Shown piece after piece: positions 31,677-62,311 of a stretch of 64,000 nucleotides of DNA. Source of the stretch: Clostridium sp. 'deep sea' (GTDB lineage Bacteria > Bacillota > UBA994 > PWPR01). The stretch spans positions 2,170,001 through 2,234,000 of the forward strand of contig NZ_CP063353.1 in assembly GCF_014931565.1 (NCBI RefSeq), read 5' to 3'. The notes under the pieces are model-generated. The model ran no database searches, was not told the DNA's origin, and saw only the letters and a list, made by a program, of their open reading frames with translations. The translations under genes were made by a program, and so were the position numbers. Each line of letters opens with the position of its first letter. Position 1 is the first letter of the stretch.

Positions 31677-31898
31677 ATGTTTTGTGGTAAAAGACTTAAA
31701 CATCTTAGACTAACCAATAATATGAAGCAAACACAATTAGCTGATAAGTTACAAATATCAAAAGGTTGTATCTCAAGATATGAGCTAGGTATAAGAAATC
31801 CTAATTTACATACCTTACTTAAGATGTCAGTTGTTTTTAATGTATCTACTGATTATTTACTTGGCAGAGATTTGTTTGTAGAATCAATACTAAAATAA
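31677..31898 (+). CDS. XRE-family regulator of the element
   Basis: 73 residues, almost entirely one Cro/CI HTH (MFCGKRLKHLRLTNNMKQTQ ... VSTDYLLG). The ATG at 31677 has GGGGTG 5 nt before it; two earlier in-frame Met lack such a site. Probably the element's own repressor. Confidence 0.82.
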   Translation: MFCGKRLKHLRLTNNMKQTQLADKLQISKGCISRYELGIRNPNLHTLLKMSVVFNVSTDYLLGRDLFVESILK

Positions 31899-32006: not shown

Positions 32007-32135
32007 TTAATCACAAGTGATTAAATGCTTCTTTTTCACCGTAAGGTGAATAACACACCCATAGGGTATATCACTACTAAAGGTAAAACCACGCACAAAA
32101 GTGCATATCACTCAAACAGTTGCCCTTACCCCTTG
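32007..32135. repeat. hairpin-array repeat, copy 1
   Basis: A run of short hairpins: TTAATCAC-AA-GTGATTAA, TTCACC-GTA-AGGTGAA and GCAC-AAAA-GTGC, with ATATCACT between some of them, ending GTTGCCCTTACCCCTTGAA. Copy 2 at 32292-32426 keeps the same order with scattered changes. No ORF. Confidence 0.7.
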
Positions 32136-32291
32136 AAGATAATAACATAGAGTGGATTTTATCAATTATAAGTATTAATATGTCCTTTAATAAGTATTTT
32201 TTAGAGAGATTATATAGGTTTATGATGCGTTAATTGAAGGGAGGAAAGTGTTATAGTGCTTCGCACTGTAATATTCATACATGAGTGAGAT

Positions 32292-32426
32292 TAATCACAA
32301 GTGATTAAGTGATATGATATGCTTCTCTCTCACCGTAAGGTGAATATGACACCTGCAGGGTATATCACTACCAAAGGTAATACCACGCACGATAGTGCAT
32401 ATCCAAAGGTTGCCCTTACCCCTTGA
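32292..32426. repeat. hairpin-array repeat, copy 2
   Basis: TAATCAC-AA-GTGATTA, TCACC-GTA-AGGTGA and GCAC-GATA-GTGC, with GTGATAT on the left and ATATCAC on the right able to pair with each other, and the same end GTTGCCCTTACCCCTTGAA. Preceded by AGTGC-TTC-GCACT at 32255-32267. Confidence 0.7.
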
Positions 32427-32455
32427 AAATTAGGCATTTAAATACTACAAAGCAA

Positions 32456-32606
32456 ATGAAGTGTCACCCTGTGACATGAAGTATCTTCGATATGAAGTGC
32501 CTTACGGCATGAAGTGAAGCTTACCACAAATGTGCGAATGCACACTTCATTAGCGCAGCGACTTCATGTGTGAAAACACACTTCACTTACCTAAGGTAAA
32601 CTTCAT
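32456..32606. repeat. symmetrical hairpin array with ATGAAGT/ACTTCAT spacers
   Basis: Four ATGAAGT units (32456, 32476, 32492, 32509) are mirrored by four ACTTCAT-type units (32544, 32561, 32580 as ACTTCAC, 32600). Between units sit different tiny hairpins: GTCAC-CCT-GTGAC, TATC-TTC-GATA, TGCC-TTA-CGGCA, TGTGC-GAAT-GCACA, GTGTG-AAAA-CACAC, TTACC-TAA-GGTAA. The left and right units can pair to give a long helix with side hairpins. No coding potential. Confidence 0.75.
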
Positions 32607-32609
32607 TAA

Positions 32610-32638
32610 AAAAAGCATCCTAAATGGATGCTCTTTTT
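32610..32638 (-). terminator. terminator of the tRNA-Ser-Ser-Arg operon
   Basis: AGCATCC-TAAAT-GGATGCT with T runs on both strands, directly after the tRNA-Arg. Confidence 0.8.
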
Positions 32639-32639
32639 T

Positions 32640-32717
32640 TGGCGTGCCTGGCAGGATTCGAACCTGCGACCTCCTGATTCGTAGTCAGTTACTCTATCCG
32701 GACTGAGCTACAAGCAC
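32640..32717 (-). tRNA. tRNA-Arg (ACG)
   Basis: The minus strand gives a full cloverleaf. The anticodon loop is CTACGAA (anticodon ACG), the T-loop region is GGTTCGAATCC, and CCA is encoded. The acceptor GTGCTTG pairs with CAGGCAC. Its 3' half is the attachment site duplicated at 27624. Confidence 0.95.
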
Positions 32718-32724
32718 ATGTAAA

Positions 32725-32818
32725 TGGCGGAGAGAGCGGGATTCGAACCCGCGATACGAGTTTTGCCCGTATAATCGCTTAGCAGGCGACCGCCTTCGAC
32801 CTACTCGGCCATCTCTCC
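32725..32818 (-). tRNA. tRNA-Ser (GCT)
   Basis: GGAGAGATGGCCGAG start, anticodon loop CTGCTAA (anticodon GCT), a long variable arm typical of tRNA-Ser, and encoded CCA. Confidence 0.95.
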
Positions 32819-32826
32819 ATGTCATG

Positions 32827-32915
32827 TGGCGGAGAAGGTGGGATTCGAACCCACGGCCCCTTACGGAGTCACCAATTTTCAAGACTGGCTCCTTAAACCA
32901 CTCGGACACCTCTCC
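32827..32915 (-). tRNA. tRNA-Ser (TGA)
   Basis: GGAGAGGTGTCCGAG start, anticodon loop CTTGAAA (anticodon TGA), long variable arm and encoded CCA. First gene of the three-tRNA operon. Confidence 0.95.
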
Positions 32916-33466: not shown

Positions 33467-33584
33467 GAATATAGATTTAATGCACAAATGTGTTAGGAAA
33501 AAAATTTTTATTATAGATTTTAAATGTGTTTTAATACTTCATGGTATACTTAATTTATAGAAAATTAAGTAAAGGATGAAACCA

Positions 33585-34187
33585 ATGAAGTTGAGAGAAA
33601 ACCTTTGTAAGTGGGTTATAGCACAAATTAAAACACAAAATACCGATTTAAGTGAAACTAGGGTAGCTGAATTAGAGTATGGTTTTCATTGTTTTTATAC
33701 TTTTATAACCAAAATCTCTTTCATCATTATACTCTCGATTATACTTAAAATGACTCCAGAGATACTTACGGTTATTATTACCTTTTTGTTTGTAAGATCT
33801 TTTGCTGGAGGCATACACGCAGAATCGTCTTTAGCCTGTTTGGTAACTACTACAGCTATATATTTTGGAGTATCTTTTGCTGCTATACATATCCACATAC
33901 CATTTATGATACTTATCAGTATGGCTGTATTTGCAATAGTTTTAATCGCTATTTTTGCACCAGCCGATGTTGCAAATAAGCCAATTCGGGGAATAAAACA
34001 TAAGCGTAAGTTAAAAACACTATCTGTTATATTTGCAATTGTGTTTACTACAATAGCATTTTTTATGAGACCTGTTTTACAGAATGCAATTTTACTATCT
34101 ATTTTTGTAGAAAGCATAATGGTTACCCCTTTGGCTTATAAGCTAACTAATACCTTAGGAGGAGAACATTATGAAGAAATTGTTTAA
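33585..34187 (+). CDS. agrB: AgrB-type accessory peptidase for autoinducing peptide
   Basis: 200-residue membrane protein that cuts and cyclises the AgrD precursor. VRSFAGGIHAESSLACL carries the catalytic His and Cys with the family's spacing (H, then C seven residues later). Five to six hydrophobic segments follow. The ATG at 33585 has AAAGGA 8 nt before it; an ATG at 33576 overlaps that site. The agrD start lies inside its last codons. Confidence 0.93.
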   Translation: MKLRENLCKWVIAQIKTQNTDLSETRVAELEYGFHCFYTFITKISFIIILSIILKMTPEILTVIITFLFVRSFAGGIHAESSLACLVTTTAIYFGVSFAAIHIHIPFMILISMAVFAIVLIAIFAPADVANKPIRGIKHKRKLKTLSVIFAIVFTTIAFFMRPVLQNAILLSIFVESIMVTPLAYKLTNTLGGEHYEEIV

Positions 34188-34314
34188 AAAATCATTAATT
34201 ATATCAGCTTTAACAGCACTTTGTGTGCTTTTTGCTGCCTCTTCTAGTGCAGCTACACTAATTTCGGTTTGGGATCAACCAAAGATTCCTAAATCACTAA
34301 TTATTGAAGAATAG
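34171..34314 (+). CDS. agrD: AgrD-like cyclic peptide precursor lacking the usual Cys
   Basis: 47 residues, too short to be listed by most ORF finders. The N terminus MKKLFKKSLIISALTALC is amphipathic or hydrophobic, and the C terminus WDQPKIPKSLIIEE matches the charged, proline-containing AgrD tail (xQPxxPxxL). The segment between, SSSAATLISVW, has no Cys; the only Cys (residue 18) is far upstream. A Ser- or Thr-based lactone is the alternative ring. TAGGAGG precedes the ATG and the gene overlaps agrB by 17 nt. SSSAA could also be a signal-peptidase site. Confidence 0.8.
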   Translation: MKKLFKKSLIISALTALCVLFAASSSAATLISVWDQPKIPKSLIIEE

Positions 34315-34342
34315 TAATTAAGTTGCTTTCATCCTTATATTT

Positions 34343-34364
34343 AAGTTGGAGCTTGCTCCAACTT
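34343..34364. terminator. terminator between agrD and agrC
   Basis: AAGTTGGAGC and GCTCCAACTT form a 10-bp stem with a 2-nt loop between the convergent transcripts; pyrimidine-rich tail on the plus strand. Confidence 0.75.
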
Positions 34365-35652
34365 ACTTTCTTTTAAAGCCAATACACTGCATAAATTTAT
34401 TATTTTTAACTACTGTATTCCACTCTACTGGCATGTAATTCTCTAACATTGAAGCCAAACTACTTAACCCAGTTCCCCTACCTATTCCTTTTGTTGAATA
34501 TCCATCTTTATCAATAGCCGCTACCTCTAGGTTATTATTGCTAATGCTATTGGTGATTATTAACTCAAAATAATCATTATATGATAAAAATATTGCCCCA
34601 ACCTCTGGCTCGCTACATTGCTTAGCAGCTTCTATAGCATTATCTAATAATATACCTACAATCCTTATAAAATCTGTGCCCTTAATAGGCATTTTATTAA
34701 TAATATGTGGAGCCTCAATAAAAAAGCTAATTTTATGGTTATTAGCATAAAACATTTTTGCTGCCAATAAACTAATTAAGCTTGGCTCACGAATATTGAC
34801 CATTGCCTCAATCTCACTTGAATACTGGGTAATTTTAGATCCTTGAAGTTCTTGTAATCTTTCTTTTAAATCCTGCCACTCTTCTTTTTCGGCTAAGCCA
34901 TATAAACTTATTAATACATTATTAAAATCGTGTTTAAACTGTTTTATGTCATTTGAGAGTTTCGACATTGTATTTAAATAATAATGCAACTGGCTATTTT
35001 TGTATTCTTTTGCCTTCACCAAGTACTGAGAATATGCAGAAAATGAAACAACTATTAAAAAAGTTAATGGTATTAACCATATATACTTTTCTATTTGAGC
35101 TTTATCTATTTGATACATTGAAATCATATAAATGTTTGAAGCTAATAATATATAAGTAATAAAAAGATATTTGTTCCACGATGTTAAGTTTTCTGCTCTC
35201 TTAACTCCACCATATTTATTAATTAAATACCGTGCTATTCTTAGAGCTAAATAAATTATCCCAACTAAACTTAGGTTTGATAATAATTTAAATATGATAA
35301 CATTTGTTTTATTAACTGATAAGTTAAGACCTGTTACAATATAGTAAATGATATTGTCTACTAGAATACTTGGAATAAACTGCACAAGAGTACAAAAAAA
35401 CAGTATAGAAAATAGCGCTTTATAAAAAATAATATTACTAACAATTAAATATGATATAAATATTAATGGTATTCTCAATAAAGTAAATTGATTAGTAGAT
35501 ATAGTAATAACAATACTAATTAACCATAGAAGAAAAACTGAGTACCAATATGTAGATTTTTTAATCACAATCCCTGTTATAACATTTATAATTTTAAAAT
35601 ATAAAATTGCTAGTATACAAGAAAATAATGCTTCTATAACTCTGACTGCCAT
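34363..35652 (-). CDS. agrC: AgrC-type sensor histidine kinase
   Basis: 429 residues. About six transmembrane helices (residues 1-205) form the peptide sensor. The dimerisation helix carries KQFKHDFNNVLISL with the phospho-acceptor His near residue 235, followed by ATP-binding GILLDNAIEAAKQ (N box) and STKGIGRGTGLSSL (G box). This is the HPK10 type that pairs with LytTR regulators. GAGGTG inside agrA precedes the ATG, and the genes overlap by 19 nt. Confidence 0.93.
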   Translation of the reverse strand: MAVRVIEALFSCILAILYFKIINVITGIVIKKSTYWYSVFLLWLISIVITISTNQFTLLRIPLIFISYLIVSNIIFYKALFSILFFCTLVQFIPSILVDNIIYYIVTGLNLSVNKTNVIIFKLLSNLSLVGIIYLALRIARYLINKYGGVKRAENLTSWNKYLFITYILLASNIYMISMYQIDKAQIEKYIWLIPLTFLIVVSFSAYSQYLVKAKEYKNSQLHYYLNTMSKLSNDIKQFKHDFNNVLISLYGLAEKEEWQDLKERLQELQGSKITQYSSEIEAMVNIREPSLISLLAAKMFYANNHKISFFIEAPHIINKMPIKGTDFIRIVGILLDNAIEAAKQCSEPEVGAIFLSYNDYFELIITNSISNNNLEVAAIDKDGYSTKGIGRGTGLSSLASMLENYMPVEWNTVVKNNKFMQCIGFKRK

Positions 35653-47624: not shown

Positions 47625-47636
47625 ATACCCAAAATG

Positions 47637-47658
47637 CACTCCCTTAGGGGAGTTTTTT
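47637..47658 (+). terminator. terminator of the gamma-CA-like gene
   Basis: ACTCCC-TTAG-GGGAGT followed by five T. Confidence 0.85.
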
Positions 47659-47669
47659 GGGTATGGTTT

Positions 47670-47735
47670 GGGTTGGCTTTGCCAACGGGGTGGGTAGCCT
47701 ATAGGCTACGGGGTAGGCTGCGCTTTGCTTGCGGT
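47670..47735. repeat. short hairpin array with GGGGT(G/A)GG spacers
   Basis: GTTGGC-TTT-GCCAAC, GTAGCCT-AT-AGGCTAC and an imperfect GCGC/GCGG hairpin are separated by GGGGTGG and GGGGTAGG. Unrelated in sequence to the arrays near 32 kb but built the same way: a constant spacer and changing hairpins. Confidence 0.55.
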
Positions 47736-60302: not shown

Positions 60303-61925
60303 TTATTTTCCTAGTTTTGCTATTTCGTTTTTAATAATTTTTTTATCTAATCTTTCAAATAATACCTGAAATTTACCTAAAAATATACCCTGTTTAAAGT
60401 CACTATACTGCCATTTAAGTTGTTCTATCTGCAAAAATGATTTTATTTTTTGAGCTGCAAATGGAATGAATGGCTCAAGTAAGTTAGCTAAGTTAGCTAT
60501 AATTTGCACACATGTGTACAGAGTATTTTTACAATCATCTATATTGTTTTTAATTTGAATCCATGGCTGTTGCTCATCAAAATACTTGTTTGAGCTACGA
60601 ACAAAATCAAATATTTTTTCGAGAGCTGTTTTAAATTCTCCAGCCTCAATTAATTTGCCTAGTTTATGGTATAGCTCTTTTGTTTGCTTTTTAATGTCTT
60701 CATTCATTGTTCCATTAGGAACCTTATTCTCAAATGATTTTTTAATAAATACTAAGTTTCTGTTAACAAAGTTACCAAATGCACCTAATAACTCGCTATT
60801 ATTGCTATTATAAAACTCTCTCCAAGAGAAATCAGCATCTCTTTTTTCGGGCCCGTTAATAATTAAAAAATAGCGTATGGCATCTGGATTATAGTTATTT
60901 ACTATATCGGGTAACCACACAGCCCAATTTTGGCTTGTAGAGATTTTTTTTCTCTCTAGGGTAAGATATTCACTAGAGATAATTTTATTTGGCAAATGAA
61001 GACCACCATAAGCTAATAAGAGCGCTGGCCATATTAATGAGTGAAAAGGAACATTATCTTTGCCATGTACATAATAAGCAATTATATTGTCACTAGTCCA
61101 AAAATCATGCCAATTTTCCCCTGTTTTTAAGGCCCATTCTTTGCTAGCTGTTAAATAACCACAAACAGCCTCCATCCAAACATAAATTCTTTTATTTTCG
61201 AAGCCTGGAACGGGGGTGAAAATTCCTAAATCTATATCTCTAGTTACAGCTCTGTCTTGCAAACCTTTAGCAAGATATCTTTTTGTGTATTTTAATGCAT
61301 TTTCTCTCCAACCTTTAGCAGTATTTATTAGCTGATTTAGCTGTTTTTGAAAACTACTTAGTTTAAAGTACAAATGCTCTGTTTCTTTGACCACTGGCTC
61401 AGCACCACATAGTTTACACTTTTTATCATGTAACTCAACTGTATTTAACAGTGTTGTGCAATTATCACATTGGTCTCCTCTTGCAGCTCTGCCACAATGA
61501 GGACATTTACCCTCTACATAACGATCAGGCAAAAACTGCTTACAAGAATTACAATAACACTGCTTACTTTTTTTTGAGTAAAGATAATCGTTTTTCCAGA
61601 TCTGTTTGAATATTTTTTGAACTTCTTGTTTGTGAAATTCATTATCTGTTCTACTAAAATTATCATAACTAAAACCCAACTTACTGAAACAAGCTAACAT
61701 TTCATTGTGATATTTGTTAGTAATTTGTTGGGCGTTTATGCCCTCTAAACGTGCCTTGATAGCAATAGGAGTACCATGACAATCACTACCCGACACATAA
61801 AGCACCTTTTCTCCTTTTAAACGATAATAGCGGGCTAAGATATCGCCAGAAATTAAACCAGCTACATGCCCTATATGCAGTGAACCGTTGGCATAAGGCC
61901 AAGCTCCACCAATAAAAATAGACAT
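60303..61925 (-). CDS. metG: methionyl-tRNA synthetase (two-knuckle, KISTS type)
   Basis: 540 residues. Class I synthetase: PYANGSLHIGH holds the HIGH motif; two zinc knuckles are seen as CNSCKQFLPDRYVEGKCPHC and CDNC ... CKLC. The second signature is KKISTSQNW rather than KMSKS, a variant I remember from the archaeal/Bacteroidetes-like branch. The C-terminal tRNA-binding extension is absent. Behind a Met T-box leader. GGAGG precedes the ATG. Confidence 0.95.
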   Translation of the reverse strand: MSIFIGGAWPYANGSLHIGHVAGLISGDILARYYRLKGEKVLYVSGSDCHGTPIAIKARLEGINAQQITNKYHNEMLACFSKLGFSYDNFSRTDNEFHKQEVQKIFKQIWKNDYLYSKKSKQCYCNSCKQFLPDRYVEGKCPHCGRAARGDQCDNCTTLLNTVELHDKKCKLCGAEPVVKETEHLYFKLSSFQKQLNQLINTAKGWRENALKYTKRYLAKGLQDRAVTRDIDLGIFTPVPGFENKRIYVWMEAVCGYLTASKEWALKTGENWHDFWTSDNIIAYYVHGKDNVPFHSLIWPALLLAYGGLHLPNKIISSEYLTLERKKISTSQNWAVWLPDIVNNYNPDAIRYFLIINGPEKRDADFSWREFYNSNNSELLGAFGNFVNRNLVFIKKSFENKVPNGTMNEDIKKQTKELYHKLGKLIEAGEFKTALEKIFDFVRSSNKYFDEQQPWIQIKNNIDDCKNTLYTCVQIIANLANLLEPFIPFAAQKIKSFLQIEQLKWQYSDFKQGIFLGKFQVLFERLDKKIIKNEIAKLGK

Positions 61926-62029: not shown

Positions 62030-62285
62030 CACCTCCGCTCCTTTTTTCAGGAGACGAAGGTGATATCTCGTGGTACCACTCCTGTTTGTTTTCACTTCAC
62101 AGTAAAAACCTTAATAAGTGCCTAGCAGCACTTTGGCTTATTAACGAAGCCAGCCCGTTGCAGCCTACTTTTTAAATTTCGGTGCACAGCTCCAAGACCA
62201 TTTTCAGTAACCTTTGATTCACCTCTTCTCAGCAACGAGGCTCTCTGTGCAAACTTGTGTTACCTACTTTTCTTTTCATAGCTTT
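62030..62285 (-). promoter_or_regulatory. T-box leader (Met) of metG
   Basis: The conserved T-box sequence GGAGTGGTACCACG lies at about 62069-62082, followed by a terminator hairpin (CACCT ... AGGTG and CTCCT/AGGAG) with T run at 62030-62072. Upstream, the stem I region shows AGAGA and GAATC, and a specifier-like ATG (62201-62199) in TGAAAATGG, fitting Met. Uncharged tRNA-Met would favour readthrough. Confidence 0.9.
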
Positions 62286-62311
62286 TTATTAGTATATATT
62301 TTATTTTGATT

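Follow-up and report, generated by a model that had tools for sequence, protein, structure and literature searches.

What are the arrays of small, ever-changing hairpins separated by a constant heptamer that lie behind a tRNA operon of Clostridium sp. 'deep sea', and do they serve the host or themselves? The window analyzed here is a 64,000-nt stretch of the 3.83 Mb genome (NZ_CP063353.1, positions 2170001-2234000, forward strand). An initial annotation, made from the letters alone, had noted three such arrays within 600 bp and a fourth at 47.67 kb, and had proposed that one mechanism, and not the copying of a family, produced the same architecture in unrelated sequence. We consider it reasonably probable that the arrays are non-autonomous copies of selfish intergenic elements, here called S23/IVP heptamer elements.

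Table 1. Arrays and adjoining features (positions within the window)
Feature	Position	Strand	Remarks
Array 1	32007..32135	+	Mini-hairpins with ATATCAC-type 7-nt spacers between them, right-arm polarity
Array 2, near copy of array 1	32247..32425	+	Left spacers GTGTTAT/GTGATAT; right spacers ATATGAC/ATATCAC/ATACCAC
Array 3, left arm	32455..32515	+	Mini-hairpins 32463-32475, 32483-32491 and 32499-32508 between ATGAAGT copies
Array 3, central linker without ORF	32516..32531	.	Corresponding position is taken by an IVP gene in the GGGGTGG element of the same genome
Array 3, right arm	32532..32607	+	Mini-hairpins 32532-32543, 32568-32579 and 32587-32599; poor one 32552-32560
Terminator-like hairpin of the tRNA operon, touching array 3	32608..32641	-	From sequence
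Operon tRNA-Arg(acg), tRNA-Ser(gct), tRNA-Ser(tga), upstream of the terminator	32640..32915	-	From tRNA searches
GGGGTGG-type array	47665..47735	+	Spacers GGTTTGG, GGGGTGG and GGGGTAG

The arrays of the window

Array 3 is exactly as first described, with four ATGAAGT on the left, four ACTTCAT-type heptamers on the right and differing hairpins between them. The left arm carries four exact ATGAAGT copies (starts at 32456, 32476, 32492 and 32509), and the right arm ACTTCAT at 32544, 32561 and 32600 and one variant, ACTTCAC, at 32580. The units in between include six clear inverted repeats (GTCACCCTGTGAC, ATCTTCGAT, GCCTTACGGC, GTGCGAATGCAC, GTGTGAAAACAC and TTACCTAAGGTAA) and a poor one (AGCGCAGCG). 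Folding of the array is much stronger than in shuffled sequence. As RNA, its folding energy is -59.7 kcal/mol versus -36.7 +/- 3.9 in dinucleotide shuffles (z -5.9), the two strands folded as DNA give z -4.6 and -4.0, and none of 200 dinucleotide shuffles folded equally well.

Arrays 1 and 2 are indeed near copies of about 130 bp (86% identity over 90 nt, followed by 86% over 29 nt and 95% over 21 nt), and a search of the genome found only these two copies of their sequence. Read by eye, the right-hand spacers are of the 7-nt ATATCAC type and the left-hand ones GTGATAT/GTGTTAT. They fold less strongly than array 3 (z -2.0 and -1.7). The fourth array was found where it had been reported, and is adjoined by a terminator-like hairpin at about 47627-47664.

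Arrays 1 to 3 lie in a gene-poor stretch near the tRNA operon and are immediately preceded by a small Cro/C1-type HTH gene (31677-31895). Elsewhere in the window, an AgrB-family gene (33576-34187, plus strand) adjoins a GHKL-domain gene on the opposite strand (34363-35652, minus strand), and 33576-35652 is likely an agr-type quorum-sensing locus. A T-box leader (62047-62288, minus strand) lies upstream of the ORF at 60303-61925. The initial annotation had named a match to a known insertion-sequence or group II intron end family as what would refute it, and no such match arose from the Rfam search. At gathering score, Rfam returned only tRNAs and this one T-box in the window, which sets aside a group II intron or another Rfam RNA, and no Y1 transposase accompanies the arrays.

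Hairpin pairing, dispersal and empty sites

The mini-hairpins keep their pairing while their sequence changes. Covariation was judged on distinct units and not on a single set of orthologs, since the array at the dut site described below is kept in only two of the genomes read. Among 177 distinct units between ATGAAGT copies, 89% had a stem of at least 3 bp (8% after shuffling) and 54% a stem of at least 5 bp (0.6% after shuffling), where a stem was counted when it came within 1 nt of the spacers; 85 distinct stems were represented. Covariation, which had been named as a check, was seen in spacers as well as hairpins. In genome G403, the outermost spacers are altered in concert (ATGAAAT on the left, ATTTCAT on the right). 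The sister genome G001 (locus L529) has the ortholog of array 3, positioned, as here, behind the tRNA-Arg gene. In this ortholog hairpin 2 is wholly replaced (ATCTTCGAT in the window versus TTTTGCTCAGCAAAA in the sister), the last hairpin shows a two-sided A-T to G-C change (TTACC..GGTAA versus TTGCC..GGCAA), and the seventh hairpin pairs poorly.

The loops are not arbitrary either. On the ACTTCAT strand, C-G closes the loop in 126 of 158 units; GNA accounts for 44 of 71 triloops and GNNA for 41 of 60 tetraloops, with just 18 of the 41 being GNRA. Loops of the form d(cGNAg) and d(cGNNAg) are exceptionally stable in DNA mini-hairpins, whereas RNA would favor GNRA. GNA and GNNA loops closed by C-G are thus a hint, from loop sequence, which suggests that a single-stranded DNA form of the arrays may be under selection.

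A genome scan for spaced hairpins, likewise proposed at the outset, set the arrays apart from chance. Since scans for 4-bp-stem hairpins proved either too noisy or overly strict, we used a scan blind to the spacer sequence (any 6-mer occurring three times whose two intervals are each filled by a different inverted repeat). In 464 kb of the same genome (the window and twenty 20-kb stretches, three of them picked for known array sites), it returned 6 arrays, all of the ATGAAGT/ACTTCAT type and none with another spacer, versus 0, 1, 0, 0 and 0 in five shuffled controls. The GTGATAT and GGGGTGG arrays were missed because they are too degenerate for this strict scan; that they are real is supported by their likeness to arrays at IVP genes (see below).

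The arrays are dispersed, both within this genome and across others. In the same genome, the ATGAAGT spacer is found again, between different hairpins, near 532294, 870329, 1920546, 1995456/1995881, 2710450 and 3011077. At four of these six further sites, as at the window array, it stands directly past the terminator of a tRNA operon, tRNA-Pro, tmRNA or tRNA-Sec. At 1995240-1996200 (L342:1740-2700), the arrays lie within direct repeats of about 420 bp that contain CTTGAACGACACAGAGGTCGTTC, near tRNA-Arg(cct), and a third copy of this repeat has no array. The sole other genus member in our sample had 11 pattern matches, and in the 398-genome sample of the phylum no hairpin-bearing match was found outside the two genus members. 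Among the matches listed from GTDB contigs (at least 120), the identical ATGAAGT spacer was found in many uncultured Clostridia, Ruminococcaceae and Oscillospiraceae, with up to 70 matches in one genome (G400); the reversed-pattern control was compromised in several Oscillospirales genomes, where the spacer is effectively TATGAAGTAT. The usual layout is four ATGAAGT-hairpin units, a linker of 15-130 nt and four hairpin-ACTTCAT units; the arrays occur on both strands, and also where the two neighboring genes run in the same direction. Viral contigs scanned with the ATGAAGT pattern gave mostly coding sequence or tandem repeats and no varied-hairpin array.

Sites occupied in one genome are empty in others. 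For six arrays of G401 (Oscillospirales), the joined flanks were searched for in G401 and its relatives, 59 genomes in all. Of the six sites, four were empty in several relatives (G399, for example, lacks the array at the L333 site, its flanks being 92-94% identical). At the dut site, the array is present in at least one relative of G401, and another relative, G425, has a plain tandem-heptamer inverted repeat instead (GGCAATA...TATTGCC). Because the intergenic flanks have diverged, no exact junction or target-site duplication is readable at the empty sites. The vertical keeping of some arrays, as at the window site and the dut site, is also compatible with a host function.

Linkage to S23/IVP genes

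A recurrent neighbor of the arrays is a gene of the 23S rRNA intervening-sequence family (S23/IVP, PF05635; IVP hereafter), whose product is a four-helix bundle. IVP was found in 16 of 17 array genomes (in one of them only below the curated cut-off), while in the sister genome G001, which has arrays, no IVP was detected. By the coordinates listed for ten genomes, an ATGAAGT array is found no more than 500 bp away from 9 IVP genes, versus 0.21 expected by chance (P ~2e-12). Many IVP genes that lack an ATGAAGT neighbor have arrays of the same architecture with the spacers GTGATAT, GTTATAT, ATGATAT, GTGAAAT or ATGAAAT. The spacer type of array 2 occurs at the flanks of two such genes (loci L387 and L399), and the GTGATAT copies of the window are, judged by their spacers, relatives of IVP elements such as these.

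The genome of the window also has a second IVP gene (1430877-1431191), with a GGGGTGG-type left arm and a CCCCACC-type right arm around it. The 47.67-kb array can thus be regarded as an ORF-less relative of that element, and the earlier idea that the arrays are element ends fits, as they form the two arms here. The IVP of this genome is matched by a five-chain structure (PDB 2rld).

Array architecture follows the protein phylogeny. In a tree of 55 IVPs, a single clade (support 100/97) unites the 14 whose genes adjoin hairpin arrays of the ATGAAGT-like type; it is nested among IVPs with tandem heptamers. With labels assigned partly by eye, the hairpin-array character requires 2 changes on the tree versus 13.2 when shuffled. 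The GGGGTGG element represents a second origin of hairpin arrays, beside two IVPs with repeats of period 11. The spacers GTGATAT, GTGAAAT, GTTATAT and ATGAAGT look like variants of one motif, and all go with one IVP clade. The claim of a common mechanism is supported, in that different 7-nt spacers are each found at IVP genes, with one correction: the spacers are not all unrelated, and only GGGGTGG has a separate origin.

Heptamers are also found at IVP genes outside the hairpin clade. At many of the remaining genes the heptamers are plain and tandem, and their reverse complement often lies across the gene (AGCAGTC/GACTGCT, GTTCAGA/CTGAAC, CTAGTAA/TTACTAG, TGAGTGC/GCACTCA). By a period-7 test, which does not fire at every IVP, such repeats were detected at 47 of 108 IVP flanks in Clostridia and Bacillota and at 28 of 50 in other phyla (a set with IVP in 22 of 34 genomes, Nostoc, Planctomycetes and Bacteroidetes included), versus 60 of 1615 ordinary windows; in the distal portions of these loci the counts were 10 of 108 and 5 of 50. 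Repeat unit length differs among IVP lineages, a minority of flanks having tandem repeats of period 11 (GATAGTTAAAC-like), 8 or 9 (L451, L453; L489, L491, L500, L506). At L519, in a genome of the same taxonomic class, an ORF-less plain tandem-heptamer inverted repeat (CTTCGTC.../...GAGGAACGA) adjoins tRNA-Arg(cct) (at 835) on its left side; the tRNA cluster there is the counterpart of the one beside the window array.

Explanations and relation to known systems

The preferred explanation joins these observations as follows. The autonomous element would consist of a left arm of 7-nt motifs, a gene for an IVP of about 120 aa (S23, PF05635) and a reverse-complement right arm. The heptamers are simply tandem in most IVP lineages; in one IVP clade, and independently in the GGGGTGG element, mini-hairpins stand between them, with free sequence and conserved pairing. 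As the left and right heptamers are complementary, a strand can fold as a stacked structure with side hairpins. We infer that a pentameric IVP may recognize the heptamer series on a single strand, one unit per subunit, and that this strand is probably DNA, given the cGNAg and cGNNAg loops. The mini-hairpins would keep the strand open and spaced, and IVP would promote its copying by host enzymes into intergenic sites, often beside terminator hairpins. ORF-less copies would either spread with IVP acting in trans or be remnants. Counted against this reading are the absence of a recognized catalytic protein for the elements, the many arrays without an IVP gene (most of them, including the four of the window), the presence of arrays in G001 with no IVP detected there, and the lack in the window's genome of a cognate IVP for the GTGATAT arrays.

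Alternatively, the arrays could be structured RNA or terminator-like elements that serve the host and are under selection (REP/BIME-like 3'-end stabilizers or insulators), with IVP as an incidental neighbor or a user of the same sites. Their intergenic position, often right past tRNA or tmRNA terminators, their strong folding and their presence at orthologous sites in the sister species speak for this explanation. We nevertheless consider it unlikely, as sites are empty in relatives, arrays lie on both strands and also between co-directional genes, the linkage to IVP is clade-specific and far above chance, and heptamers accompany hairpin-less IVPs as well. Orthologous empty sites also speak against the arrays being autoregulatory binding sites of IVP, whose dispersed copies would be decoys or a regulon without any mobility. 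A regulatory role would account for arrays close upstream or downstream of IVP genes and for a spacer type that follows the IVP clade, but not for the many IVP genes with inverted heptamers on both sides, for G001 keeping arrays without a detectable IVP, or for dispersed sites that adjoin unrelated genes, and we give it the lowest probability of the explanations considered. Scarcely more probable is that an ordinary DNA transposase or a RAYT/IS200-type Y1 enzyme mobilizes the arrays as its MITEs, with IVP as a passenger. Dispersal, inverted arms and hairpins would all suit such an origin, and Y1 transposases occur in 9 of 13 array genomes. However, Y1_Tnp was not detected in the other four (G404, G406, G411 and the array-rich G400), elsewhere no Y1 gene adjoins an array among the matches listed, the GTAG/CGTC tag is missing, and what is seen between the arms is IVP and never a transposase.

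On the reading of the arrays as IVP elements, a wider proposal can be made tentatively, and we hold it to be possible rather than probable. S23/IVP may constitute a widespread class of selfish elements without a transposase, with lineage-specific heptamers in inverted arms, which would account for a large share of the so far unexplained bacterial heptamer repeats; the mini-hairpin arrays would be a derived form suited to single-stranded DNA. The link between IVP and heptamers, with protein clade and repeat architecture shifting together, makes the function of both testable. Should the elements prove to move, they would be a case of mobile DNA that has no recognized transposase, and the mini-hairpin arrays would exemplify pairing kept for long with free sequence, possibly in single-stranded DNA.

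Several known systems share features with the arrays. A CRISPR array, with identical repeats around non-palindromic spacers, does not fit, as the part that varies here is palindromic and the constant part has 7 nt. REP/BIME sequences with RAYT (TnpA_REP) offer an analogy, likewise combining a short motif and a hairpin in dispersed copies linked to a small gene, but the arrays have several different hairpins per element, and their constant motif is ATGAAGT, GTGATAT or GGGGTGG. The arrays resemble MITEs in being non-autonomous, with complementary inverted arms and sites that are empty in relatives; they differ in that no transposase was found and no target-site duplication was established in the diverged flanks. 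The tandem heptamer repeats of prokaryotes (STRR, TAACTGA) are 7-nt units in many intergenic copies (PMC6344855, PMC4679880), and a search of both papers for S23 or four-helix terms found no link between heptamers and IVP. Around half of the remaining IVP genes in this analysis are flanked by plain tandem heptamers like STRR, but array 3 is not an STRR, as its heptamers are separated by hairpins of 9-13 nt instead of running head-to-tail, and a complementary arm mirrors the array. In the literature covered, which excluded most subscription papers, we found no paper joining IVP to heptamers generally or describing mini-hairpin arrays.

The closest known system is the S23-encoding intervening sequence (IVS) of 23S rRNA genes in Leptospira, Coxiella and Brucella, which shares the S23/IVP family and complementary ends around an ORF. 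Classical IVSs are part of the 23S rRNA, from which RNase III removes them, whereas the arrays are intergenic and mostly ORF-less, with heptamers split by mini-hairpins; those of the window, which follow a tRNA operon or occupy other intergenic DNA, are thus not IVSs within a 23S rRNA gene. An S23/IVP gene between complementary ends is found in the element at 1430877 and not in the ORF-less arrays of the window. In the Coxiella 23S rRNA IVS, tandem heptamers (GACAGAT) stand immediately before the S23 ORF (PMC4990558).
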